In this document: piece after piece, positions 31,276-54,450 of the stretch
Position numbering within the stretch: the stretch's first letter is position 1
How the letters are laid out: each line of letters begins with the position of its first letter
Assembly (NCBI GenBank): GCA_902625885.1
Contig: CACODE010000009.1
Coordinates: forward strand, 1-64,000
Length of the DNA stretch: 64,000 nt
DNA from: an uncultured Candidatus Poseidoniales archaeon
GTDB lineage: Archaea; Thermoplasmatota; Poseidoniia; Poseidoniales; Poseidoniaceae
Reading direction: 5' to 3'
Notes under the pieces: generated by a model
What the model saw: only the letters and a program-made list of their open reading frames with translations
Told to the model about the DNA's origin: nothing
Database searches by the model: none
Translations under genes and position numbers: made by a program

Positions 31276-33879
31276 TCATTCGTGTCGAACCCACTCGCCC
31301 TCAGGCGTGACTTCCCAGTACTGAAGTTCCTCTGAGACGTCAACGTACCAGCCTGTTTGCCCTTGTGTTGTCGATGGCGTTGCTTGCATGACACCGACCC
31401 TGCCAGCCTCTTCCGCCAGCGCCGCCATGGATTCCAACGTCAGGCCGTGCCGCTCGTGCAGGGGTGTATCGTCTGCGAGAACATCGGAAGGTGTCTGTGG
31501 CGCCTCCTCTTCCTCATCCTCTTCGTAATCATCAAACGCTTCCTCCACCCAACCCTCGGTGGAGACCTTTGAGGCCTTGCGTGTGAGGGTTACCAACACG
31601 GCGAGAAGCAACACAAGGAGAATCGCAGCCATCGTCATGGCGGTGTTGGTCGAACCAACGGCCCCCCCGAGTAGCACTTCCTCCACATCGTAGAACGACT
31701 GGGCAAGAAGACCGCTCCAACGAACCGTGCAAGAGCGATCGGTGCCACCGTCTTGAACATCAACCTCCCAGGTGCCGTTTGTGACGAATTCGGTCGGACC
31801 TGCGGTGCAGGACACGGTGGTGTTTTCCCGCGGTATGTTGAGCGTGTTGCCGTAGGCATCGGTGGCGAAGGCGTTCAAGAGGACGACGTCGCCCTCGGCG
31901 ATGTTGTCTCGGCTTATGGATGCTTGAATCCTTACGGGCGCTCCTGCCTCAATCGTCAGTGGAATCGTGTGGGTCGCCCCTTCATCCTCCAGAACCAACG
32001 AGTAAGTGCCGACCTTTTTTCCGATAAATTGCCAGTATCCCAAACCCACTTGCGATGTCGTCAATTCGCCCAATGAAGCGTCTAGGGTTGTCGTGACGGA
32101 GGTCGACTCTTCGATGTTACCATGGACATCAACCACCTGAATGAACAGGTCACGGGGTTCACCTGCCTTGACAACGAGGCCGTCGTCAGCATCGGTGGTC
32201 AGACCGTGGGCGGTGCCTGCAACAACGGTCAATCGCACCGTGGCGAAGACACCATCGGCGTTAACGCGAATCTCATGACCTCCGATGTTGGTTGCCGTCC
32301 AGCGCCCATCGTTGAGCAACATCTCCAACGTGATGTCCTCACCATCCAAAGTCCAGTTAAGCGCAACTTCCTCGAGCTGATTGCCGGACGAGTCAAAGAA
32401 TTTCGGATTGAGGTCAAGAGAACCGTCTGCAGGAACTTGGGTGCCTTCGCCATCCAAAGTAATGAATGCGAGCCTCCCCGTCCGCACGTCAAACGATGTT
32501 GAGGCCACAAAGACAGTGCCCGTAGCGCTGTCGTACCAACTCCCCTCAAACCTCCACGATTGCGCTCGCTGGGCTTGTAGCAGCACGTAGCTGTCTTCTT
32601 CAACCAATTCTTCAGAAGTGCCCATCGTCATGTTGATGGAACCATCCACAACCCATCGGTTTCCTTTTACGTCCTCGGCGAAGAGCTCAATGACCACCTG
32701 TTCTCCTGACGTTGGGTTTGCAGGTTCTGTTCTCAGCAGCACGTCAATGGCTCGTCCATGGACGACGTCCACGGAAAGCGAGGTCTCCACCGTGCCGTCA
32801 AAGCCCGACACGGTGGCCGGACCGGTTCCAGAAGGGTTCCAGTACACGCGGAAATCTTCGTCAACCGAGAGACCTCCTGAGGTGGCACTCAGCGAGTGGA
32901 TGGACGGCGAAACCATGCCGACATAACCGTTGACATCTCGCCGTTCAAACACCAGTTCGTACGATTCACCTGCCATGTACTCTGAGGGGCTATCAACCAC
33001 CATGAGGGTCGAGGCGACGGCGTCGCCGGGAATCACCTGAAGCGTGGTGCTTCCAGTGATGTTCCCCGAGGAAACCGTGATTTGCCAGCGACCGGTGTTG
33101 GTGGCAAGGTATTCTCCCTGAGCGTTGAACGATCCGTTTTCGGCGAACCAAGAGAGCGAGCCGACGTTCGACAACGGCATCTCGTAGCCATTGATGTCAA
33201 CCAGTATTGGTGTGATTTTTTCAAGGGTGCCCGCACGAACCAAGAGCGGTTCATCGAACAAGAACGCATGCGGTTGACCTGCTGTGACGGCGATTGTCTC
33301 GGTAGCCTGAAGTTGGTTGAGCCTGGCGCGCACGTGGACTTGTCCAAGCGTTTCAGCGGTCCAGACAGGTTGTCCGTGACCAACGTACACGCCGTCTATG
33401 TCCCAAACGACCGTCTCTGGTGCAGCCATTCGATTGCCGCGACTGTCCAACGCATCAGCCGTTAGTGGGGTGGGTTCGAGCACGCCTACGCTCAATGTCG
33501 TGATTTCCAGAGCTGTAGCGACACCGGCCTCAACGGTGATGTTGTGCCTGTCAACGAGGCCGTTGTGCTCCGCCACCACCTCAACCACCGTGGCGGACCA
33601 CGGGTAGAACAAACCGTCATCCGTGATGGTACCGTTTGACACGGACCAAGAGACATCGCCGGACAACACGTTGTTGACCGGGTCGTAAATGATGGCAGTG
33701 AACTGAACAACCTCGTCAGCCGAAAGGGTGACGGGCGGTGCATCGATAACCACCCTGTCCGCTGTGCCATTCCGTAAAACGACGGTCGGTTCATCAAGCG
33801 CCGCCGGCATGGCCGCTGACCACGTTCCAACGAGGAACAGACCAACGAGGAGCAGGCAGGCCTTCACGGAGGTCAACAC
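31276..33879 (-). CDS. Membrane-anchored surface protein with tandem bacterial Ig-like domains
   Basis: 867 aa. Signal peptide 1-24 (ACLLLVGLFLVGTWSA). Residues ~35-740 contain about seven ~95-residue beta-sandwich units sharing a pattern of 'ADE.V.F.A...D..GN.......W...NG' and ending V.AG.A, for example VTLSADEVVQFTAIIYDP. The same unit fills the C-terminal third of the neighbouring 3040-aa protein. A membrane helix (MTMAAILLVLLLAVLVTL, ~750) leads to an acidic cytoplasmic tail of ~90 residues that ends GWYVDVSEELQYWEVTPEG. The gene begins 9 nt after the stop of the giant gene with GAGGAG before its ATG, so the two form an operon. Adhesion or cell-wall scaffolding is inferred. Confidence 0.8.
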   Translation of the reverse strand: MLTSVKACLLLVGLFLVGTWSAAMPAALDEPTVVLRNGTADRVVIDAPPVTLSADEVVQFTAIIYDPVNNVLSGDVSWSVSNGTITDDGLFYPWSATVVEVVAEHNGLVDRHNITVEAGVATALEITTLSVGVLEPTPLTADALDSRGNRMAAPETVVWDIDGVYVGHGQPVWTAETLGQVHVRARLNQLQATETIAVTAGQPHAFLFDEPLLVRAGTLEKITPILVDINGYEMPLSNVGSLSWFAENGSFNAQGEYLATNTGRWQITVSSGNITGSTTLQVIPGDAVASTLMVVDSPSEYMAGESYELVFERRDVNGYVGMVSPSIHSLSATSGGLSVDEDFRVYWNPSGTGPATVSGFDGTVETSLSVDVVHGRAIDVLLRTEPANPTSGEQVVIELFAEDVKGNRWVVDGSINMTMGTSEELVEEDSYVLLQAQRAQSWRFEGSWYDSATGTVFVASTSFDVRTGRLAFITLDGEGTQVPADGSLDLNPKFFDSSGNQLEEVALNWTLDGEDITLEMLLNDGRWTATNIGGHEIRVNADGVFATVRLTVVAGTAHGLTTDADDGLVVKAGEPRDLFIQVVDVHGNIEESTSVTTTLDASLGELTTSQVGLGYWQFIGKKVGTYSLVLEDEGATHTIPLTIEAGAPVRIQASISRDNIAEGDVVLLNAFATDAYGNTLNIPRENTTVSCTAGPTEFVTNGTWEVDVQDGGTDRSCTVRWSGLLAQSFYDVEEVLLGGAVGSTNTAMTMAAILLVLLLAVLVTLTRKASKVSTEGWVEEAFDDYEEDEEEEAPQTPSDVLADDTPLHERHGLTLESMAALAEEAGRVGVMQATPSTTQGQTGWYVDVSEELQYWEVTPEGEWVRHE

Positions 33880-33888
33880 ATCATCTCC

Positions 33889-36800
33889 TCATTCAGAATA
33901 TTCCTGCCATTCTTCTTCTCCGGCCATTCTGTACCACCAGTTGCCGTCTTCGTCTTCCCACCATTCGGTGCCGTCCTCGTCAACGCTGGTTTCGATTTCC
34001 TCCTCAGGCTCCTCGGCCACAGGTGCCTCTTCGGCTGGCGGAGGACCGGATGGACCGGGTGCCGGGCCTGTTGGGCCGGGTGCCGGGCCCGTGGGCCCTT
34101 TCGGACGGGGTTCGTCCTCGTCATCATCGTCATCATCGTCGTCCCAGTCGTCGTCGCGACCGTTTCTCATGAACATCACCAGAAGACCAAGAAGCACCGC
34201 GCCGACAACGCCAAGCAAACCAGCTCCGACGTAGTAAAGCGTACCGCCCGCTTCAAAGAACCCGGCGAGGTTGCCTTCAACGACGATCTCAAGGTTCACA
34301 CGCTCCGCTCCAACACTGACCGTGATGGTTTGGGGACCGTCATCAAGGGTCGTGATGGTCCAGTTTTCTGACGAACTCATCATGGATGTTCCTCGGCCTG
34401 TCATTTCCACCTGCACGCTACCCGGAACGGGAATTTCGTTGTCAAAGGCATCAAAGGCTCGAATGAAAACACCGAGACTCTCGAGCTGCTCCAAGGTTGT
34501 GGTTGACAAGTTCACCTCAAGGCGGGCAACCGTGCTTTGCGCAAACACTTCGATGGTGGTCGTGGACACGGCGCCTCCCACGGTGTACTGGAGGGTATGA
34601 ACGCCGGCCACTTCCGCTGCGTAGATGTACGTTCCCTCCGAGGTGGTAACAATGCTGAGTGTTGGAACCGGAGCACCGTCTTCAGTCCACTCAACATCCT
34701 GTGGGAACTCGTTGCCATCGGCGTCGGTGCCGGTGACCTGAATGTCCACGTCATCCCCTGCCGTGGGCGAGGTCTGGGAAAGAGCGGCGGAAACCGTAAC
34801 CGCCTCGCCGTGCAGAACAGTGACTGTTATGCTGTCACTGATGTTGAAACCGTTTTCGCTTACGGCCCACGCCTCAATGCGCCACTCTCCAACTGTCGAT
34901 GCTTCCCACCGCATGTTGTCCAGAAGCAACGACGTGGTGATGTCTGTGGTCTCACCGGTTGCCAGATGAACTTCGTGCCATGTTAGCCTGTCCGAGGAAA
35001 TCGGGTTGTTGTCGGCATCGAACAGTTGTGAGGAAAAGTCGATGGCATAATCTGAGGTCAACTCAATGACCGCACCGGTTGAACGGTCCGCATCGTTGGC
35101 CACGCCCTCGATGGTGACGCTGTTCAGCACACCGTTGTCGACGGTAATGTTCAACGCAACGCTCAACGATGTGTTGGCGTCGGTGTAAGTTGCCACCAGC
35201 ATGTAGGGCTCGGTAGAGGCATAGTAAGGTGTAAACGTCGTGGCGTCGCCTGAAAGAACCTCAAGGAAGTTCGAAGCATCGCTGATGGTGGGGTGTTCCA
35301 TCGACCAGTTTGTTTCCGGAACGGCCCACTGATTGCCTTTGGCGTCTATGGCGAAGATTTTCGCTTCAAGTGTTTCGTCGGCCGTGATTTCGAGGCTCTG
35401 CCACGTTCGCACCTCATCGTCCACCATGAGTCGAAGGGATTGCGTGATACCTCTGTCAACCGCAATGACGACTTGAGTCAGTTCGGTTTCGTATCTGGCT
35501 TCGAGAATCTTAGAGCCCGTTTTGACCGGGTCCCATATCGCTGGGGCCCCCGGCGTCAACTGCCCGTCGGAGGTCTTCGTCCAGTTGTCTGCTGGCAAAA
35601 TCACCGACAGGCGGTTGCCTCTTACATCGACTCGAGTGGTGTTGATGTAGACACGGTCATCGGCCGTCACCGCCGTGGAGGAGACGTTCAATTCCAGGTA
35701 GTCAATGGCTCCATGCCCGACCGATATCTGGAGTTCAGCCGTAGCGCCTGAGATTGAACTGAGGTTCAGCCACCAAGTGCCGACATGGTCAGGGAAGTAT
35801 TGCTGATTGATTTCAGAATAATTTCCGTTGGTTGTGGTCCACGTCAAATCGCCTGCATCGCTTATGTCCAGAGCGTTACCAAACTGATCGAAAAGGTCGA
35901 TCGTGATGTCGCACCAAACACCGGCCGGAACCGTTCCTTCACACCCGCCGAGCTCAAAGTATGAGGGAGCCCCAGGCAGCACGGTAATGTCAACGACAAC
36001 CTGTTGGCCGCTCGCTGGATGCGCCACGGTGATGGTGTGGTCGCCAGCGGCGTATGGGAAGAACGTGGTACCGAACACGCTGCCGTTTGAGGGCGTGATG
36101 AGGATGCTTTCACCAGGCTTGAAATTGCCGTGTTGATCGGCCATTTGCGCCGTGATGGTGAGGTTCTCGTCAGCCGTGATGGTGGCCGTCAACGGGGTAA
36201 CAACGAGGTCGACGGCTGCACCGGGCGTGACCGTGATGTTTTGTGTCCCGCACACCAAACCAAAGCATGCCATCACCGAGGCGATACCGGCTGTGCTTGG
36301 GGTGAACAGACCGTTGCTGCCGATGCTTCCTGAAGAGGCGTACCAAGTGACTGGCGTGGATTGGACCATCTGCAAATGGTCGTAAGCAACGGCATTGAAG
36401 TTCACGGCTGTGTCGGCGTCCGTGGTGAGCGAACCGCTCGGACTGATGGACATGGTCGTGATGTTGGTGGTGTTGAACATGACCTTCGGCCGGAAATCAA
36501 CGTTGTTTGCGGTGCCGGAATAAAACGAAGCGTGGGCGTGTCCGGTGTTTGGTGTAGCGATGATGATCCATGCCTGATGGTTGCTGATGGTCATGCCGGG
36601 TGTGCTCAAATCAAACCACAGCCACCCTGTCGTGTCGACGTTGACCACGGTCGTTGATACGGCAGACCCGTAATCGCTGCCGGCTTGCATCCCGGGTGAG
36701 CCCCAAAGCACGCCACCGGTCGTTCCGTTCCATGTTGCAGAGGCTTGGCTCCAATTCTGGTTCAACACAGGATGAACACTGAAGGAGACGGAGGTTGCGC

Positions 36801-39800
36801 CCTGCACGGATGCCCAATCTTCAACGTACAGTCCGAGCGATGCAGAGTGAACGACTTGGTACGGGGCAAACGGAATTTGAGAGGCATCCAGGCCGATGTT
36901 AATTCGGCATTCGTCGACATAAAGCGTCCCGCAATAGGTTCCTGCCCGAATAACAGAGTTGCCAGCAAAGTTGGTGTTCGGGTATTCACTGTAAAGCGTG
37001 GTGTCCTGTATGTTGGTGTGGCCGAAGGCGGCGACTTCGCTGCCGGTTTGGAACATGTAAGTGTAGGTGTAGTCGTTGTTGTAGGTGTGGTCGGGGTCGC
37101 CGATAGCAAAACTCCAACGTGAAGAGGATGGCCCTGGTATGGACTGGTTAACACCCTGAACCCACCAAGAGAAGGTCTGACCCTCACTGAGGTTGGTGGA
37201 GAACCGGAACGTGGTGTTGGTGATCTCGTCGTCTTCCCAAGATTTGAACTTGAACACGCCCGTTTCGTTGGCGACGGTGACGATGTAGCCGGTCGCACCG
37301 CTGACGGGCGACCATGTCAACACGGGTTGGGACGGTGGCGTCAACAGCCCGTTGCTCTCGGCGTACAGGACCTGTCCGTCCGCAGGCGAATTCAAAACTG
37401 GCTGGGCGGGAGGCAAGATGCCGTTGACGTTGTCAACATAATCCAAAACAAGGTGCGGGTGGTAGGTAGCGTCGTTGTATTCCGACGAATAGAACGTGTG
37501 AGATGAACCGCCGCTACCAACTTTCGCAAGCATGAACGTCATGGTGGTGTTGCCGTTGGCAATGTTGGACTGGGCTAGCCCGGTGAGGTCCCATTCAATC
37601 CATCCAACCGGCTGAGCGAGCGTGATGGTTGAGCGAGTGATCTCCGTTCCGGAGCACGTTGGGGCGGTCAGCCAAATGACACTGGACTCGGTAAAGCCGC
37701 TGCAGGGATAGGCTGCAACGGTGGTGGACGATGTCCCGCCAACGCCGATTTGGTACATTCGCAGCACCATCTGCGTCGGCGTCATGGCCGCAGGCCAGGG
37801 TATGTCGGTCAGGTCAAATTCCATCAGCACTCGACTTTCGCCCGTGCCCAAGGCGTTCACGCCCAACGACATCGTCGCCGAACTGCCTTTGTTAACGGTC
37901 GCACCCGAATCAATCTCAACATCAGGAACCGACGGCAAGAGCCCTGTTTCATCGAAGATGGAACCCCGAGAAAGGTTCAGCGTGTGGTTGCCGTTGCCGT
38001 CATCGCTTCCTTGGTCGACGGGATTTCGATATTCGTGGGTGACCGACCATCTGCCGATTCGATCGCCCTGGTCGGCGCGGATTCGCCAGTACTGCCAGAT
38101 GTCACCCTTGTACATGTTTGACGCATGGATGGTGTTGTTGAGCAGATCGATGCTTGTGTTGCCCACCAAGCCTGCAGCGACCTCATCAGAGGTGTAACAT
38201 ATCGTGTTTTCATCCAAAAAGAAGGGGTCAGGTCCTCCACATGAAACGTAGCGTGTGTAGTTGTTGTAGGTAAGGTTCCAGGTGAATTCGGTTGAGTTCA
38301 TGCCGGAAGGGCGCGGCTGTGAAAGGTTCCACAACGTAGCCCCGTCGGCTGGGAGCAGACCAGTGGGGGCTGCAGGTGTCCACGCCGCCGTTGTTCTGTA
38401 GGTGAGGTTAAGTCGAGGACGAACGTCAATGTTTGATGATTCACTGGAGGCAAACTGGACGCGGCCGTTCACGCCGTTTTCCAGTTCAACAGGGAACAAA
38501 AACACATCCAACTCGGCAACGTTGGCGTCGAGAGCGTGCTGTACATAGGCCGTGACGTTGAACGAAAAGACTCCGGTGCCGTTGACCCATTGGGCGTCGT
38601 TGATCGGCACATCGATGTCGTCCTCCGAAAAGGAACCCTGCGAGGCCCACGACGAGGTGTTTCCTGCAGGGTAAGCATATACGGAAGATTCAGACCACGC
38701 CGAAACGATTTCTGATACGGCGATTTTGGTCGATTGGTAGGCTCCAACGGCCGTCAAATCCAGTGTGGCGTTGACAACCTCGTACGTTCCGGGCAGCGGA
38801 AGACCGCTAAAGTCCATGTTGATCAACGAAGCAGAACGCAAGTTGGCGTTGTTGGTGGATACCGAGCTGCGCCCGACGTAGAGCATGGTTGATGAGCCCT
38901 GATTGGCGTAAATGTTCCCGGTGTCGATGAAAGTGTCCGCCGATACGCTCGGGTAAGCGAGCGAGGGAACGATGGCACCGTCCTGAATGGACACCTTGGC
39001 GTAGGTTGAATTGATTTCCTCACCGACATCGTTGGGAAGGTAAAACACCGTTGAGTTGCTCCTTGGCCCGAGCATGCCGTTGTTCATCGGCTGCACCATC
39101 CAACGAATGTCTTGAGCGAAGGTCAGTGCTTGAGGTGGCGTGAAGGTGTTGTTTGCGACATCAAAGGCTGCAGGAGTCAGGCGAGAGTCGTAGGTATAGA
39201 GTCCGGACATGTCGTTGCTAGCATCGGCCTGAATGAACACGCGCCAGCCCGTGGCCGTCGTGGAACCGCTGTATGTCCATGTGAACGTCGGTGTCGAATC
39301 GGCTTGGAGTGCATGCGATGTGGCGTCCCAGACAATGGCCCCGTTGCTCGGTCCCGTGTTGACGCCGCTCACGCTGGGTGTGGCGACCGTGCCGTCTTCC
39401 CACGTCAAGTTCAGGTAAGGACGCTCGCTTGCACTTCCTTCGGTCGAGGTGAACGTGATAACATCCGTCGTCTGAGACGACGTGTAAATCATCAACGAAA
39501 TATGGTTCTGTCCTGCACCGATAGCGGCTTGAACCGATTCCGTGACGTCGAAATCCATCCATCCGTCTGAAACGCTGTCAACAAGATCGACGTAGGTACC
39601 GATATCGGTGCCGATGGCTCTGCCACCTCGCTGAGCCCAGTTGTTGGTACCGTCGTAGGTTGTGGCGTTCGCAGCGGTGGTCCAAGGTTGAAGAACGGGT
39701 CGGACGGCGACCGGTTCGTCTTCTACCGAACCGTATTCAGCGAACAGGCTCAATTTTGCACCGGTGACACGGGCACCAGATGGTTGAGGCACTTCGCTAA

Positions 39801-42800
39801 GGGGGATCCGAAGAAGCGCCGCTGCCTGATAACCTGAGGAAACCTCGCCAACCTTGAGGGTGGTGGAATTTTCGTACGTGCTGTCCGAGCCCGAACCGTT
39901 CTCTATGACGTAGGTGTCGACGAAGTGCGGGGTGTTGAGATGGGGGAGAGCACCGTGATGGCGCAATTCAACCGAGGCTTTGGTGGCGTTGAAGACCACC
40001 GTGTTCAGTTCAGGCAATTGGAAGTGGTAGGCGTTGGACCAATTGCCAATTTGGTTGGTGGCGGAAACGGCACGAACGCGCCAGAACCATGTCTCTCCGG
40101 TATCGAGTGCGGTGTCAACGTTCAGCGTGTTGTTCGCAATGTCAAACCCGTCATCGTTCCACGAAGTGTAGGTCAAACTGTCAACCGAAGAGAAGTCGCT
40201 CTGAGTATCGAGTTGAACGATGTAGCCGGCCAACGCCATGCTTCCGGCGAAATTCCACACGAGGGCGGGTTGAGTGATGGGGGTCAAGTTCACGCCCGAG
40301 CCGATTGACCAAGAGCCGTTAAGCGGCAGCGATGGCGTCGGGTCAGAAGGCAGCGCATCCGAGCCCGGCACGTAAACGAAACTCAGCTCGGGCCGATTGG
40401 CGGCGCTGTCCTCAGCAGTGCTGAAGTAAGCCGTTCTGGCGCCGCCTGAGCCCGTGCCGAGCATGCCGGCGATGAAGTCCACTCGGCGGTCTTCGCGCAT
40501 GGCGCTCTGCACGGCAAGTGTCACGTTCCACTCAACCGCATCGCCCTCTGCATAGGACGTGCCAATGGTCACGCTGTCGAGAATGGAACCGCGTTCGACA
40601 CCTTTCGCACCCGCTGTGTCCCACGAATTTGAACCGTCGTAGCTCGACCAGGTGGCGTCCTCAGCACTCCAGTTGTTTTGCGTGCTTTCCCAAACCCCAA
40701 CGGTTGGGTTGCCGAAGGTGGTACCGGTCAACTTCATCGACAGATGAGCCGATTCAACAGCATAGCCGTCAGGCAACAGGTTGGACACGAGGTTGCAACC
40801 CAGCAAGCCGGTGATTTCACCGCCGAACGGGCTGTAGTCAATGGTCATCTCCGAGTCGCCGTCGAAGTTGCTGCTGGTCGCAGCGCTGTCGATGTACGTG
40901 TCCATGCACTCTGGATATTGGTTGTCCTGAGAGCCGTTGCCGTGTTTCATGCGGAATTCGTATCGATCGCCGCCAAGCCACGTGCTCTCGAGTTGAGAGA
41001 CCAAGAAACTCGAGCTGACCCAGGCGCCGTAATGGCCGTCACTGTCGACGGTTGCCATCCTCCAGAAGTACATGTTTCCAATATCGAGGGTGTTGCCACC
41101 GTTCATCGTTAGCGTACCGTCGGTCGGGTTGAAGTCGTTGTCAACCCTTGTGTCAACTCGCATTTCTCGCAAACGGAAATCTTCATCCGTGGCAAGTTCG
41201 AACAGGATATCATCGCCGGTAGCGGGTTGCGTCCAGTTGAGAGAAGGTTGGGTGTTCCCCGAAAGGTTGTCACCGGTCTGGTTCCAAACCGCTAGGCCGT
41301 CTGCAGGTGCCGTGAGACTGACCGCCGTCGGTGGTGTGCCGCTGCCCCACTTGTACGTGAGCGTGAACGACGGAGCGTTGCTGGGGTTGCTGGCCTCGGT
41401 GGAGTGGAAGACAATGCCGTCGTTGTTGGTGTAGCTTTCGTATTTTCCACGAACAGCCATCATCAAATCAAGCGGGGCACCGTCGCCGCCGTCGAGGTAG
41501 TTCTGGACAGCGTGGTCGAGTTCAAAAGTGAAGGTGTCGCTGGTCTGGTCGCTTTGAGCGAGCGCTACGGCAGCGGTGCCGTTTGATCGGCCGCCGTCGT
41601 ACCACTGAACACCGCTGCTTGACATGCGATTCCACGTGATTTCCTCCTCAACCCACAGGCCGGATGTTTCCATACCGTGAACAGAAACGGCAGCGTCGCC
41701 GTTGTATGAAGCGCGGGTCATTTTCAAGTCGGCGTTGACGATGGTGAGGTTGTCGTGCAAACCGAGTTGGTTGAGCGAGGCTCGAAGGTGAATGAGGCGC
41801 TCTTTGTTTGATGTCATGCTCGATTCGAGAACCGCATCGCTTCCGTAGGTGATGGTTTTGCGAGTCTCGTTGACGAAGGCATCCTGCAAGAAATTGTTTT
41901 CCAGGCCGGTATCGGTTGGTCCAAAGGTCATGCTTGCGGTGCCATCACCGTTGTCAACCACGTTGAGCGTTGGCAGAAGGAAACTGGTGCTGTCCCACGG
42001 CCCCCACTGATCGCCGCTATCAACGGCGCGAATACGCATGTGCATGGTGGTGCCGTTCACAAGTGCCAACGTCGAGGGGAGGTTGAAGGAACCGGATGTA
42101 CCGGTGGAGGCAAACGTGGACCAGAGGGTGGAAAAGTGCCAGGCAGCGTCGGTTTCTGAGCGCCAATCCGCTTCGTTACTGAGTTGAATTTCCACATCGG
42201 TTCCCGTGTTGAAGTCGTAATCGAGCGTCGGTGTTGTTACGGGCTGCAGCAAGAACGAAGATTCCATCCATGGCATGCCGTCTTCGACCGGAAGGTCGGT
42301 CGAGACCGTTGCGCCGGACGTTGCGCTTTGCCCGCTGGTCACGTCCATGGTCAACACGGGGCGGTCCGTGGCCACGATGCTTTCCGACATGGCACAGTCG
42401 TAAGTCTCACCAAACGAAGCGACCAGAACCGAGACATAGCTCGCGTTGGACCGAGCCGCCTCTTGAGCGATGGAGGTGACGTTCAAGGTCAACGTACCAT
42501 TGCCGGTGAGGGAAGCCGGAGGCTCCCAATCGCCACGGTCGCCTGTGCCTTCAGCACCGGCCTCCGTCCAGAGTTGATTGCTGGCGTAGGCAAGCCATGT
42601 CGCATGGGAGCCGTTCCACATCCTGTCCATCGACGACACGTAGGCTGTGATGCCCGCCGGTCCAAGCATGTCGGTCGTGCATTCCAAATCGATACTCGCT
42701 TCGTGAACCGTATCGCTGGAGGTGTAATTCATGGGGAACCGAAGAAGGAGGCGAGACTCTTGCGAGGCGCCCGCTGCCAACACACCGGTAGCAGAGGTGT

Positions 42801-43011
42801 TGAACGTGCTGCCCGGCGAACTCTCTGAAATGTAGGTGTCTGCATGAATGGCGTGGTTTGAAACGACCCGCTGGACCGTGTTTTCCTCCTCAAGCTCGCT
42901 CCAACCCTCCATCGTCTGTGGAAGGGAAAGGTCGGCGAAAATGAACATCAAAACGAGCAAAAGTGCTGTGGCTCGGGGACGATGGATTCGTACGCTACGC
43001 ATGGGACTCAT
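33889..43011 (-). CDS. Giant (3040 aa) surface protein: seven DNRLRE/FN3-like modules, Ig-like repeats, TM anchor
   Basis: One uninterrupted 9.1 kb frame. A signal peptide (ATALLLVLMFIFADLSLP) is followed by seven ~325-residue modules whose DNRLRE-like strands start near residues 57, 377, 702, 1030, 1359, 1697 and 2005 (ADTYISESSPGS, MDTYIDSAATSS, VDTYVIENGSGS, ADTFIDTGN...). Each includes a beta domain with ATWSSYDGSNSW-type wording and an FN3-like domain with PxxGxxxW. Residues ~2185-2890 are Ig-like units like those of the next gene. A membrane helix (~2905-2925) precedes a tail with eight successive Asp, PTGPAPGPTGP repeats and DGTEWWEDEDGNWWYR. Start ATG 43011 or, judged from the upstream CTATAAT, ATG 43002. 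DNRLRE domains are often glycan-binding; function here is unknown. Confidence 0.85.
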   Translation of the reverse strand: MSPMRSVRIHRPRATALLLVLMFIFADLSLPQTMEGWSELEEENTVQRVVSNHAIHADTYISESSPGSTFNTSATGVLAAGASQESRLLLRFPMNYTSSDTVHEASIDLECTTDMLGPAGITAYVSSMDRMWNGSHATWLAYASNQLWTEAGAEGTGDRGDWEPPASLTGNGTLTLNVTSIAQEAARSNASYVSVLVASFGETYDCAMSESIVATDRPVLTMDVTSGQSATSGATVSTDLPVEDGMPWMESSFLLQPVTTPTLDYDFNTGTDVEIQLSNEADWRSETDAAWHFSTLWSTFASTGTSGSFNLPSTLALVNGTTMHMRIRAVDSGDQWGPWDSTSFLLPTLNVVDNGDGTASMTFGPTDTGLENNFLQDAFVNETRKTITYGSDAVLESSMTSNKERLIHLRASLNQLGLHDNLTIVNADLKMTRASYNGDAAVSVHGMETSGLWVEEEITWNRMSSSGVQWYDGGRSNGTAAVALAQSDQTSDTFTFELDHAVQNYLDGGDGAPLDLMMAVRGKYESYTNNDGIVFHSTEASNPSNAPSFTLTYKWGSGTPPTAVSLTAPADGLAVWNQTGDNLSGNTQPSLNWTQPATGDDILFELATDEDFRLREMRVDTRVDNDFNPTDGTLTMNGGNTLDIGNMYFWRMATVDSDGHYGAWVSSSFLVSQLESTWLGGDRYEFRMKHGNGSQDNQYPECMDTYIDSAATSSNFDGDSEMTIDYSPFGGEITGLLGCNLVSNLLPDGYAVESAHLSMKLTGTTFGNPTVGVWESTQNNWSAEDATWSSYDGSNSWDTAGAKGVERGSILDSVTIGTSYAEGDAVEWNVTLAVQSAMREDRRVDFIAGMLGTGSGGARTAYFSTAEDSAANRPELSFVYVPGSDALPSDPTPSLPLNGSWSIGSGVNLTPITQPALVWNFAGSMALAGYIVQLDTQSDFSSVDSLTYTSWNDDGFDIANNTLNVDTALDTGETWFWRVRAVSATNQIGNWSNAYHFQLPELNTVVFNATKASVELRHHGALPHLNTPHFVDTYVIENGSGSDSTYENSTTLKVGEVSSGYQAAALLRIPLSEVPQPSGARVTGAKLSLFAEYGSVEDEPVAVRPVLQPWTTAANATTYDGTNNWAQRGGRAIGTDIGTYVDLVDSVSDGWMDFDVTESVQAAIGAGQNHISLMIYTSSQTTDVITFTSTEGSASERPYLNLTWEDGTVATPSVSGVNTGPSNGAIVWDATSHALQADSTPTFTWTYSGSTTATGWRVFIQADASNDMSGLYTYDSRLTPAAFDVANNTFTPPQALTFAQDIRWMVQPMNNGMLGPRSNSTVFYLPNDVGEEINSTYAKVSIQDGAIVPSLAYPSVSADTFIDTGNIYANQGSSTMLYVGRSSVSTNNANLRSASLINMDFSGLPLPGTYEVVNATLDLTAVGAYQSTKIAVSEIVSAWSESSVYAYPAGNTSSWASQGSFSEDDIDVPINDAQWVNGTGVFSFNVTAYVQHALDANVAELDVFLFPVELENGVNGRVQFASSESSNIDVRPRLNLTYRTTAAWTPAAPTGLLPADGATLWNLSQPRPSGMNSTEFTWNLTYNNYTRYVSCGGPDPFFLDENTICYTSDEVAAGLVGNTSIDLLNNTIHASNMYKGDIWQYWRIRADQGDRIGRWSVTHEYRNPVDQGSDDGNGNHTLNLSRGSIFDETGLLPSVPDVEIDSGATVNKGSSATMSLGVNALGTGESRVLMEFDLTDIPWPAAMTPTQMVLRMYQIGVGGTSSTTVAAYPCSGFTESSVIWLTAPTCSGTEITRSTITLAQPVGWIEWDLTGLAQSNIANGNTTMTFMLAKVGSGGSSHTFYSSEYNDATYHPHLVLDYVDNVNGILPPAQPVLNSPADGQVLYAESNGLLTPPSQPVLTWSPVSGATGYIVTVANETGVFKFKSWEDDEITNTTFRFSTNLSEGQTFSWWVQGVNQSIPGPSSSRWSFAIGDPDHTYNNDYTYTYMFQTGSEVAAFGHTNIQDTTLYSEYPNTNFAGNSVIRAGTYCGTLYVDECRINIGLDASQIPFAPYQVVHSASLGLYVEDWASVQGATSVSFSVHPVLNQNWSQASATWNGTTGGVLWGSPGMQAGSDYGSAVSTTVVNVDTTGWLWFDLSTPGMTISNHQAWIIIATPNTGHAHASFYSGTANNVDFRPKVMFNTTNITTMSISPSGSLTTDADTAVNFNAVAYDHLQMVQSTPVTWYASSGSIGSNGLFTPSTAGIASVMACFGLVCGTQNITVTPGAAVDLVVTPLTATITADENLTITAQMADQHGNFKPGESILITPSNGSVFGTTFFPYAAGDHTITVAHPASGQQVVVDITVLPGAPSYFELGGCEGTVPAGVWCDITIDLFDQFGNALDISDAGDLTWTTTNGNYSEINQQYFPDHVGTWWLNLSSISGATAELQISVGHGAIDYLELNVSSTAVTADDRVYINTTRVDVRGNRLSVILPADNWTKTSDGQLTPGAPAIWDPVKTGSKILEARYETELTQVVIAVDRGITQSLRLMVDDEVRTWQSLEITADETLEAKIFAIDAKGNQWAVPETNWSMEHPTISDASNFLEVLSGDATTFTPYYASTEPYMLVATYTDANTSLSVALNITVDNGVLNSVTIEGVANDADRSTGAVIELTSDYAIDFSSQLFDADNNPISSDRLTWHEVHLATGETTDITTSLLLDNMRWEASTVGEWRIEAWAVSENGFNISDSITVTVLHGEAVTVSAALSQTSPTAGDDVDIQVTGTDADGNEFPQDVEWTEDGAPVPTLSIVTTSEGTYIYAAEVAGVHTLQYTVGGAVSTTTIEVFAQSTVARLEVNLSTTTLEQLESLGVFIRAFDAFDNEIPVPGSVQVEMTGRGTSMMSSSENWTITTLDDGPQTITVSVGAERVNLEIVVEGNLAGFFEAGGTLYYVGAGLLGVVGAVLLGLLVMFMRNGRDDDWDDDDDDDDEDEPRPKGPTGPAPGPTGPAPGPSGPPPAEEAPVAEEPEEEIETSVDEDGTEWWEDEDGNWWYRMAGEEEWQEYSE
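36480..42845 (-). repeat. Seven tandem ~1-kb coding modules (DNRLRE + FN3-like)
   Basis: Module starts in protein coordinates are spaced 308-338 residues. Copies are well diverged in sequence but keep the same order of motifs, indicating ancient tandem duplication and selection for length or multivalency. Confidence 0.75.
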
Positions 43012-43150: not shown

Positions 43151-44107
43151 ATGAGCGAACTTTGGGTTGAGAAGCACCGTCCCCAATCGGTGACTCAGAT
43201 CAAGGGTCAGGCGGCTGTTGTGCAGCGTCTTGGCACCTACGCTGGGAGCAAGAATTTCCCGCACTTGCTGTTCGCCGGGCCGCCCGGGACCGGAAAAACC
43301 ACCGCAGCGATGGCCCTAACAAAGGACATCTTCGGCGAAGATTACCGCCAAAACCTGTTGGAAATGAACGCCTCAGATGAACGAAAATTGGAAAGCATCC
43401 GTACCAAAGTCAAGCAATTTGCCCGAACCCAACCCTACGGTGGTGCGGCGTTCAAAATCATCTTCCTTGACGAAGCCGACGCCCTCACCAACGACGCACA
43501 AGGCGCTCTGCGTCGAATCATGGAACAGTACGCCGAAACATGCCGGTTTATTCTTTCCTGCAATTACTCTTCGAAAATTATCGAGCCCATCCAATCAAGA
43601 TGCGCCGTCTTTCGGTTCCGGCCCCTTTCCGACGCCGATGTGTCGTCCCAAGTGGTTCATGTTGCTGGCCTCGAAAACCTCACTTTGGGCGATGGTGCTG
43701 TCGAGGCCTTAACACGAATTTCCCAAGGCGACCTGCGCAAAGCGCTGACCGCCTTGCAGGTTGCTGCGGCCCTGAACAGCACCGTTTCAAGGGAACTGGT
43801 CTACGAAACCTCGGCCACGGCTCCCCCTGAAGCCCTGCACCAGTACCTCATGGCCTGCCGGGACGACGGGTTCCACGTTGCTCGCCGCAGGCTCCGAGAA
43901 CTGCTTGACCAGTTTGGCCTTGCCGGGACGGATTTCGTGAATCAGCTCCATCGCGAACTGTACAGCGCCGATTTCCTCAGCGAGCGATCAAAACTCGCCC
44001 TGACCGAGTGGATGGCTGAAATCGATTACCGCCTTGTGGAGGGCGGCGGTGAGCAAATTCAACTCGACGCCCTCACGGCCCAAATCGTTCAACACTTGGG
44101 TGCCTGA
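43151..44107 (+). CDS. rfcS: Replication factor C small subunit (clamp loader)
   Basis: AAA+ ATPase that, with the large subunit, loads the PCNA clamp. ELWVEKHRPQSVTQIKGQ opens the protein as in archaeal/eukaryotic RFC; Walker A is FAGPPGTGKTT, DEADALTNDAQGALRRIME is Walker B plus the sensor region, CNYSSKIIEPIQSRC carries sensor 1 and the RFC-box SRC arginine. ATG 43151 gives 318 aa, the usual archaeal length; the track start at 42848 runs antisense into the giant gene and is not supported. RFC large subunit is not in the window. Confidence 0.95.
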   Translation: MSELWVEKHRPQSVTQIKGQAAVVQRLGTYAGSKNFPHLLFAGPPGTGKTTAAMALTKDIFGEDYRQNLLEMNASDERKLESIRTKVKQFARTQPYGGAAFKIIFLDEADALTNDAQGALRRIMEQYAETCRFILSCNYSSKIIEPIQSRCAVFRFRPLSDADVSSQVVHVAGLENLTLGDGAVEALTRISQGDLRKALTALQVAAALNSTVSRELVYETSATAPPEALHQYLMACRDDGFHVARRRLRELLDQFGLAGTDFVNQLHRELYSADFLSERSKLALTEWMAEIDYRLVEGGGEQIQLDALTAQIVQHLGA

Positions 44108-51702: not shown

Positions 51703-54450
51703 TCACTTGAATTTGCCTATTCGATCGAGCAATCCCCGAGAAGTCCCTTCTTCGGCCTGCAACCCGCTGTCGGTCTCGGTCATCGAGGGCACGACAACAG
51801 CCCCGTCCTCCATCCTCCATCGGATTAACACGAGCACCGCAACTGCGAGCAAAACCAACGCACCGAAGCCAGCGAGGATGGCAATGTTGAGGCTACCACT
51901 GTCGTCTTGCTGGGCGTTTTGCGGTTCGGCGGAAGTCTGGTTGCTCGTTGCTGGTTCGTAGACGATGTTGGCCACAACGCTTCGTTGCAGTTCTTCGTCG
52001 TAAACCTCCAGTTCAATCAACACGGTGGAGGAACCGGTCGTCGGCAAAGGAAGCAGGCTAAGGCAATGGTAGGCGCCGGAACCGCCGCTCAAGCAGGAAT
52101 GATTGACATCGACGACCGTGCCGTCGACGGTGATCACGGCCTCGGTGTTGACCGCTCCATCAACATCAGCGACCGTCCAGTGCATGTTCACCGATGAACT
52201 CCCCAAAGGTTGAACCGACTCAATACCGATAAAGGGCATGTCTCCTACAGGAGCGATGGTCAGCGTGAGCGCTTTGCCGTAAGGGGTGGCACCGTCGGAG
52301 ACGTTCAACCAGATGTTCTCGTAAACACCAAACGCGTCTTGGGCCGGTGTGAGCACCGCCGAACCGTTTTCGATGACGACCGACACGTCATCGAGCGAGC
52401 CTTCCATTGTCCACAGCAACACGTCGCCGTCAACATCGTAAGCCAACAATCCTAACTGGATAACAAGGGGTGTGTCCTCCAACATGCTGAGGTTGCCCCA
52501 AGCACTCTCATTGACAACCACCGGGTCGTTGACCGGGTTCACCACCACGGGCACCTCAACTTCAACAGGTGGGTTGGCATCATCGCTGACAAGGAGTTTG
52601 AGTACCGTTGCACCGTACTGGTTTTCCAGCGGCGTCAAGGTGATTTTCTCACCTTCAATGCTGTAGTGAATCGGCCCTTGCATCCCGTTTTTTCCTCCAT
52701 CAAGATGCACCTCCAGCGGTGTTCCCTCGGGATCTTGAATCACTTCGTTTAGGTTGTAGACAACGCTTGGTCCGTCTTCGTTCATTTCCTGAATGGGAAC
52801 CGTGCCGTCCTTGACAAGCGGGTCGTTCACCGAGGTCAAGACAACCCGGAGTTGGGTCGAAATCTCGTCGATAACGGTGCCATCGCTGCGCAAGGTCACG
52901 TCAACAAAACACTCACCCAGCCATTCCTCATCGTAGGGATGAGACACTGTCAGTGACAAACCATCTGCAGCGATTTGGGTGGCAAAGTGTGAGGCATCCT
53001 CCCCGACAAGGGTGGCTGCCGTTATGCGTACAAGTTGCCCGTCGGGGTCTTGTGCAACAGCGGAGGCGTTCAGGCTCTTTTCACCTCGTTGCGGCACGTA
53101 AATCACGGGCGCTGGCGAAAGCGGCTGGATGGGTGTGTTTTCTCTGATGGTGGAGGTTGTAAACACGGTCGGTGCCCCCTCAACTTCAAGGCGTAGCCAT
53201 GCTTTTTGCGGCCCGGGTGCTACCTCCGTCATTGGGTATTGGCATGACACCTCTCCGTCTTGCGAGACCGTTGCGTTTGTTGGCCATGGGCCGTTGAACC
53301 AACCACAAGTCAGGTTCACGTCCCACCCTGCGGGGAGGTCCTGCATTGATGAACCGTCTCGCAAGGTCCAATTGAGGTTAATTTCCAGCACGTGCGTGGC
53401 GTTTAACGTGGCGGCGGGAGGGTGGCTGACGTGTTCAGAAGTCCACCTAACAAACGTAGAAGCGTCCAAATTTTCACTGACGTAGGCGGACCCATCGCTG
53501 ACGGTGTTCGGACCCTCGGCTCGATTGAAGGCTTGCCTGAACTTCGAGTGGTCACCGTGAAGAACGGTATCGAGGTAGGGAATGAGGTGATCGGTTGAAA
53601 GCTCGATCTGCGCTGATTGGCTCATCGTTGCGTCACCGTCGTTTTCAAAGAACGAGCGTTCGTCTTGGAACTGGTAGTGGTCTGCGCCCAACAGGTGCAT
53701 CCACTGCCAACCTATGCCGCCGAGTTCCTCAACACGTTCCATGGTTTCCTGAGACGGCGCCACTTCGTCAACGGTTCCTGTGATGAAGAAACCCGTGTTG
53801 GGTCTAGGAGGCTGTGGTATGGCGACGTCGCTCCACTGGAAATCGTCCTCCACGTCCTCCATGTCCAAGCCGAGACCAAACAAGGCCCGTGGTGGATGCC
53901 TGGTTGACGCTTCGGAACTCTGGTTCCAAAACGGGTAGGCGAGGTAGGCCGCCGTCGCTCCTTTTCCATGGCCGGAAATGCCCCAGTGGTCCACATCGAT
54001 GTTTTCCGCTGTTCCCATGATGTGCAGGTTTGTTTGGTTTTGCTGCCGCATCGTGTCGTGAATATCGGTGAGTCGCTCAAGGGTGGCCTCAACATCGGTT
54101 TCGTCCGAGAGCGCTTGCGTAACGATGACAATGAACCCTCGCTTGGCAAATTCCTCGGTGAGCAAGGTGTAGCTGTCAATGGATTCTCCCGAGTCGCCCA
54201 CAAAGACCATCCACGAAAACGGCCCGTTGCCTGCCATGTCTTTGTCTTCGCCCTCAAACATAGCAGGGTAGACCATTCGCACCTCTGGCGAAAAGAAACC
54301 ACCGAGATTAAATTCCGTCCAACCAACAGGAAAATCCACGCCCTCATGACTCTCCTCAAAGGCGGTTGTCTCCTCGAGCACGCCCATGGCCGACGGAGCG
54401 AGGAGAAGCAAGACCAAGGAAAAGGAAAGAACGGTGCCGATATTGCGCAT
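51703..54450 (-). CDS. Surface protein with degenerate alpha/beta-hydrolase domain and cadherin-like repeats
   Basis: 915 aa. Signal peptide 1-23. Residues ~40-300 look like a dienelactone-hydrolase/chlorophyllase-like fold: VFVGDSGESIDSY, then the elbow GISGHGKGATAAYLAYPF, GTVDEVAPSQE (acid) and GADHYQF (His). At the nucleophile position (residue 162) the usual Ser of GHSxG is Gly (codon GGA), so ordinary serine hydrolysis is unlikely. The rest has Ig/cadherin-like modules (VVNPVNDPVVV, AVVAQDPDGQ-type), then a membrane helix (IAILAGFGALVLLAVAVLVLI, ~870) and a ~35-residue cytoplasmic tail. It may have become a binding protein; activity by another residue is not excluded. Confidence 0.78.
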   Translation of the reverse strand: MRNIGTVLSFSLVLLLLAPSAMGVLEETTAFEESHEGVDFPVGWTEFNLGGFFSPEVRMVYPAMFEGEDKDMAGNGPFSWMVFVGDSGESIDSYTLLTEEFAKRGFIVIVTQALSDETDVEATLERLTDIHDTMRQQNQTNLHIMGTAENIDVDHWGISGHGKGATAAYLAYPFWNQSSEASTRHPPRALFGLGLDMEDVEDDFQWSDVAIPQPPRPNTGFFITGTVDEVAPSQETMERVEELGGIGWQWMHLLGADHYQFQDERSFFENDGDATMSQSAQIELSTDHLIPYLDTVLHGDHSKFRQAFNRAEGPNTVSDGSAYVSENLDASTFVRWTSEHVSHPPAATLNATHVLEINLNWTLRDGSSMQDLPAGWDVNLTCGWFNGPWPTNATVSQDGEVSCQYPMTEVAPGPQKAWLRLEVEGAPTVFTTSTIRENTPIQPLSPAPVIYVPQRGEKSLNASAVAQDPDGQLVRITAATLVGEDASHFATQIAADGLSLTVSHPYDEEWLGECFVDVTLRSDGTVIDEISTQLRVVLTSVNDPLVKDGTVPIQEMNEDGPSVVYNLNEVIQDPEGTPLEVHLDGGKNGMQGPIHYSIEGEKITLTPLENQYGATVLKLLVSDDANPPVEVEVPVVVNPVNDPVVVNESAWGNLSMLEDTPLVIQLGLLAYDVDGDVLLWTMEGSLDDVSVVIENGSAVLTPAQDAFGVYENIWLNVSDGATPYGKALTLTIAPVGDMPFIGIESVQPLGSSSVNMHWTVADVDGAVNTEAVITVDGTVVDVNHSCLSGGSGAYHCLSLLPLPTTGSSTVLIELEVYDEELQRSVVANIVYEPATSNQTSAEPQNAQQDDSGSLNIAILAGFGALVLLAVAVLVLIRWRMEDGAVVVPSMTETDSGLQAEEGTSRGLLDRIGKFK

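Follow-up and report, generated by a model that had tools for sequence, protein, structure and literature searches.

A membrane-anchored surface protein of Poseidoniales with a constant set of seven DNRLRE modules as a candidate surface-contact stalk

DNRLRE proteins (family NF033679) are known from archaeal cell surfaces, e.g., as surface proteins of Methanosarcina. The 3040-aa protein described here is encoded in a 64,000-nt window (the whole stretch of DNA that was analysed) from a Poseidoniales (Marine Group II) MAG. It has the same archaeal cell-surface setting and all of its seven modules match the family, but its DNRLRE domains and FN3-like spacers alternate in a fixed order, and an Ig stalk, a TM helix and a W-rich tail come after them. 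Its modules have fold and profile-level homology in common with CBM96 (7vbo, alginate; 8wab, chondroitin sulfate), whereas they do not keep the alginate-binding residues as a set or the basic groove, and no lyase catalytic domain is attached. The tandem Ig-like domains of Gram-positive S-layer proteins (4uid/4uj6) and of Leptospira LigA match its Ig region by profile. That match is limited to the Ig region, and the window protein was found to carry no SLH-type anchor but a TM helix. For the same organisms, a contact role has been proposed for thrombospondin, flotillin and archaellum adhesion genes (PMC6461757), but these are different genes. A search of the open-licence literature for DNRLRE and archaea found no paper on a Poseidoniales protein among those listed.

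The minus-strand ORF is intact and open across 3040 codons. NF033679 matches seven stretches of the protein (E 3e-100, 333 bits), i.e., it exceeds the curated cut-off of 34 bits and belongs to the DNRLRE family; individual modules score 59-83 bits among the own-genome matches listed. CBM96 (Pfam) also matches seven stretches (E 8e-51). The opening conserved Asp of the modules is found at residues 58, 377, 704, 1032, 1359, 1697 and 2003, which corresponds to a spacing of 324 +/- 10 residues (range 306-338). An initial annotation had placed seven periodic DNRLRE-like starts within a few residues of these positions, which we can confirm. Pairwise identity between modules of one protein is only about 20%, and a self-BLAST of the protein detected no repeats because the modules are too diverged. 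In contrast, an HMM built from six modules recovers the left-out seventh in 7/7 cases (iE 1e-12 to 1e-21). An analogous test shows the linkers of about 135 aa to be mutually homologous (8e-8 to 4e-32), such that one DNRLRE domain and one FN3-like spacer make up the repeat unit. That is, the protein consists of six full DNRLRE+FN3 units and a seventh DNRLRE domain that abuts the Ig region; of the seven DNRLRE/FN3-like modules annotated initially, the DNRLRE parts stand and the seventh FN3 part does not. The features are as follows, with DNRLRE boundaries from NF033679 and the left-out-module HMMs and linker boundaries from the linker HMM test.

33889..43011, minus strand: 3040-aa surface protein gene, whole ORF (start maybe at the second Met, residue 4)
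42913..43011, minus strand: signal peptide-like segment, residues 1-33 (hydrophobic window around 12-34)
42346..42855, minus strand: DNRLRE module 1, residues 53-222
41920..42333, minus strand: FN3-like linker 1, residues 227-364
41359..41898, minus strand: DNRLRE module 2, residues 372-551
40942..41346, minus strand: FN3-like linker 2, residues 556-690
40372..40902, minus strand: DNRLRE module 3, residues 704-880
39958..40368, minus strand: FN3-like linker 3, residues 882-1018
39403..39936, minus strand: DNRLRE module 4, residues 1026-1203 (structure predicted together with linker 4)
38971..39393, minus strand: FN3-like linker 4, residues 1207-1347 (also predicted structure)
38398..38940, minus strand: DNRLRE module 5, residues 1358-1538
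37951..38394, minus strand: FN3-like linker 5, residues 1540-1687
37438..37914, minus strand: DNRLRE module 6, residues 1700-1858
37033..37434, minus strand: FN3-like linker 6, residues 1860-1993
36475..37014, minus strand: DNRLRE module 7, residues 2000-2179 (no FN3-like linker after it)
34276..36462, minus strand: about eight Ig-like beta domains, residues 2184-2912 (profile and predicted structure)
34165..34239, minus strand: predicted single transmembrane helix, residues 2925-2949
34006..34155, minus strand: acidic (poly-Asp) and GPTGPAPGP-rich stretch, residues 2953-3002, predicted cytoplasmic
33892..34005, minus strand: conserved 38-aa W-rich tail, residues 3003-3040 (predicted small beta structure)
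31276..33879, minus strand: 867-aa Ig-domain/TM protein gene directly downstream, syntenic partner and paralog of the Ig region (25% identity)
43151..44107, plus strand: rfcS (replication factor C small subunit), divergent neighbour used as a synteny marker, separate from the candidate stalk

The DNRLRE module profile matches the solved DNRLRE/CBM96 structures 8wab and 7vbo (E about 4e-10). When module 4 and linker 4 were modelled together with AlphaFold2 (pLDDT 72, pTM 0.70), both were again the best PDB matches (TM-score 0.70-0.71 by target length), ahead of many FN3 proteins. The linker profile matches FN3con and titin FN3 weakly (E 0.005 and 1e-4, respectively), and Pfam fn3 has no match in the 3040-aa protein. 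The structure predictions were built on shallow alignments (18 and 8 rows) that comprised the window sequence and related loci. The structure prediction of one module, which had been suggested along with the initial annotation, thus yields a CBM96-type fold, and module 4 is predicted to have the beta-sandwich fold of the solved members. We also checked non-homology of the periodic segments, which that annotation had named as the case against it; left-out-module HMMs and predicted structure both uphold homology.

The model of residues 2180-3040 comprises about eight Ig-like domains, a TM helix, a disordered acidic/GP-rich stretch and a small beta-structured tail. The two ends are modelled with good confidence but the mid-part of the Ig region is not (pLDDT 40-65), and we therefore only infer an extended shape. 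The Ig-like units and the poly-Asp/PTGPAPGP stretch had been noticed before; both are present, but the latter lies on the predicted cytoplasmic side of the TM helix and is not the end of the protein, which is formed by the W-rich tail. This 38-aa tail is kept in both Poseidoniales families and matched no Pfam family. Its motif DEDGxEWWEDxxGxWWYR...EWxxWxE is common to three otherwise unrelated proteins of this genome, i.e., the window protein, a 1479-aa FG-GAP-type protein with a TM segment (L059:4861-9297, minus strand) and an apparently cytosolic 252-aa protein with no obvious signal peptide (L060:4375-5130, minus strand). Calling the tail 'WW-like' denotes a resemblance only.

N-glycosylation sequons are enriched in 20/20 orthologs, with 54-80 per protein vs 34-47 in shuffles (approx. 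1.3-1.8 fold). Nine of them are conserved in all 20 orthologs, and every well-conserved sequon sits N-terminal of the TM helix. An STT3 oligosaccharyltransferase is encoded in the same genome, and the ectodomain is probably N-glycosylated, as judged from the sequons. Signal peptide, one TM helix on the C-terminal side and sequon enrichment support the cell-surface location assumed initially, and the very long fibre proposed there is supported as a long chain of beta-domains. The STT3/AglB-type protein is itself a 3190-aa ORF (L065:1435-11007, plus strand, own-genome contig C1) with a PF02516 match and a WWDYG motif at its start. These are followed by about 2200 predicted extracellular residues and a C-terminal TM segment, which is unusually long for this enzyme.

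In a first sample, the protein is present in all 29 genus mates, and the five other genera tested, from both families, carry it at 32-46% identity. Exactly seven DNRLRE modules are found at the same places in 29/29 full-length proteins (window included), i.e., the comparison of module number between strains, which had been proposed as a check, revealed no variation. Named relatives are the marine 'Euryarchaeota archaeon' MAGs MED790, RS440 and UBA486, and both the division into two families and the gene context agree with Poseidoniales (PMC6461757). In a wider sample of the order, full-length open frames span 3011-3250 aa. Nearly all genomes of the first family are positive, the exceptions being genera g5, g20 and a small number of incomplete genomes; presence in the second family is limited to four genera (g10, g12, g14, g21), with absence from most sampled. 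Outside the order, just weak single DNRLRE matches were found, in other Thermoplasmatota. Among the genomes searched, the DNRLRE/FN3/Ig/TM/W-tail architecture with seven modules is thus found in Poseidoniales alone.

In a tree of 17 proteins with seven modules each, every module position forms one clade across both families (support 0.99; 0.97-1.0 over the positions). In both families the gene adjoins rfcS divergently, with the Ig-domain paralog downstream. The architecture is therefore old and vertically inherited. The simplest account is a seven-module protein in the common ancestor of both families that was later lost in several lineages; the rfcS locus of genus g5 (L053, G033:C48:31000-38500), which misses the giant gene and keeps one Ig-domain gene, fits lineage loss. 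Lateral transfer between the two families is disfavoured by the common rfcS synteny. Since support for the deeper nodes of the module tree is poor, we do not claim an order of module duplications. A link to the archaellum was considered and rejected, as co-occurrence with archaellin is partial and phylogenetically confounded: genus g12 has the seven-module protein without archaellin, and genus g5 shows the reverse.

Building on the observed domain content, homology, fixed count, synteny, TM helix and sequon enrichment, our preferred explanation, which we hold at about even confidence, is a membrane-anchored surface-contact stalk of fixed length. Of this, export, anchoring in the membrane, an array of beta-domains and the constant module count are best supported. 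The protein would be exported and held by its one TM helix near the C-terminus. It would project a chain of about 21 beta-domains, with about eight Ig-like domains nearest the membrane and, beyond these, seven DNRLRE (CBM96-fold) domains spaced by six FN3-like units, module 1 being outermost. Given usual domain sizes, an extended stalk would measure roughly 80-90 nm. The outer modules would most likely be shown to other cells, polymers or the cell's own envelope glycans, most modules would serve as spacers rather than as alginate-type binding sites, and the W-rich cytoplasmic tail would probably couple the stalk to something inside. A module number that stayed fixed while the modules diverged favours a stalk of defined length over a sticky fibre that can change. 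FISH data of the Helgoland type show MGII cells as mostly free-living (PMC6864105), such that attachment gains no direct support from them.

A fixed length alone is no proof of a stalk function and would suit an S-layer-like lattice protein as well. Here, the protein would be a structural part of the envelope, with DNRLRE, FN3 and Ig domains packed sideways and the module number set by lattice geometry. We consider this unlikely, with an appreciable chance left. The nearest profile matches of the Ig region are Gram-positive S-layer proteins (4uid, E 1e-6; 4uj6/4uic, E 1e-4) and Leptospira LigA, and its structural matches include the S-layer folds Sap, EA1, SbsB and SbsC. However, the structural matches are generic tandem-Ig proteins with low TM-scores, with nuclear pore, contactin and titin in the same list. 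Fixed architecture, acidity and conserved sequons fit a lattice as well, but about 3000 aa would be unusually long for an S-layer subunit. The lineage-wide presence expected of a main S-layer component is not seen in the sampled Poseidoniales genera; the protein is missing in g5 and g20 of the first family and in the majority of the second-family genera sampled, and is thus no envelope protein that the order has in general. In favour of a lattice, DNRLRE was first described in archaeal proteins that include S-layer proteins (PMC9971899, PMC2447325).

The initial annotation had proposed a multivalent adhesin, in which all seven DNRLRE modules bind polysaccharide of particles or algae. We rate this as unlikely, slightly more so than the lattice, even though chondroitin sulfate and alginate are the ligands of the solved relatives 8wab and 7vbo, respectively, and attachment of MGIIa to particles has been proposed (PMC6461757). 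Mutagenesis of CBM96 identified K10, K22, K25, K27, K31, R36 and Y159 as alginate-binding residues, and R36E abolishes binding (PMC9971899). None of the seven modules retains this residue set according to two agreeing alignment methods; the K27 position is usually Gly and the R36 position usually Ser. Furthermore, conservation among orthologs falls below the module average at the groove-equivalent columns of 7/7 modules, whereas the core columns equal or exceed it. Individual groove positions are conserved in single modules, e.g., modules 3 and 5 have Arg in place of Y159. The protein as a whole is strongly acidic, and its modules are net acidic (4-12 K+R vs 12-27 D+E), which is unfavourable for binding acidic polysaccharides. 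The carbohydrate-binding-module fold of the annotated binding modules thus holds, the CBM96 alginate residues are missing as a set, the groove is less conserved than the module average, and the alignments argue against an alginate-type site in all seven. The modules may nevertheless bind other ligands, e.g., neutral ones, or bind through a different face. This cautions against labelling every DNRLRE/CBM96 domain a polysaccharide binder.

Quite improbable, in our estimate, is a length-setting strut, in which selection for a fixed reach would hold the count and the W-rich mini-domain, also found on the 1479-aa FG-GAP-type and the soluble 252-aa protein, would tie several surface proteins to a common partner inside the cell. 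Repeat expansion that is recent or still ongoing, i.e., a contingency-type adhesin varying in length between strains, has next to no chance and is refuted within the sampled genomes: the even spacing is typical of tandem duplication, but modules are 57-75% identical to the same position within the genus vs about 20% between positions, each position forms one clade and the count is constantly seven.

In the surface ocean, Poseidoniales belong to the most abundant archaea; to our knowledge, they have no cultured member. With the candidate stalk, a concrete conserved surface protein is now at hand whose defined domain boundaries allow its expression in pieces. Its distribution (nearly all MGIIa-type, few MGIIb-type genera) can be compared against lifestyle.

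We also noticed other surface proteins. The downstream Ig-domain proteins (window 31276-33879, minus strand; L043, L045, L047, L049) end in GWYxDxxGxxxxWxxxxxGxW, unlike the W-rich tail. In genomes of the second family, the gene downstream of the seven-module gene is longer and has one extra DNRLRE domain. Both families have a second conserved surface protein (L061:3659-7912, plus strand; L062:1080-5435 and L063:1082-5446, both minus strand), which is about 1420-1455 aa long and contains a single diverged DNRLRE domain; the one scanned member of this group has a CARDB domain. Finally, window positions 51703-54450 (minus strand) encode a 915-aa protein with bacterial Ig/cadherin-like domains (Big_9), a probable surface protein.
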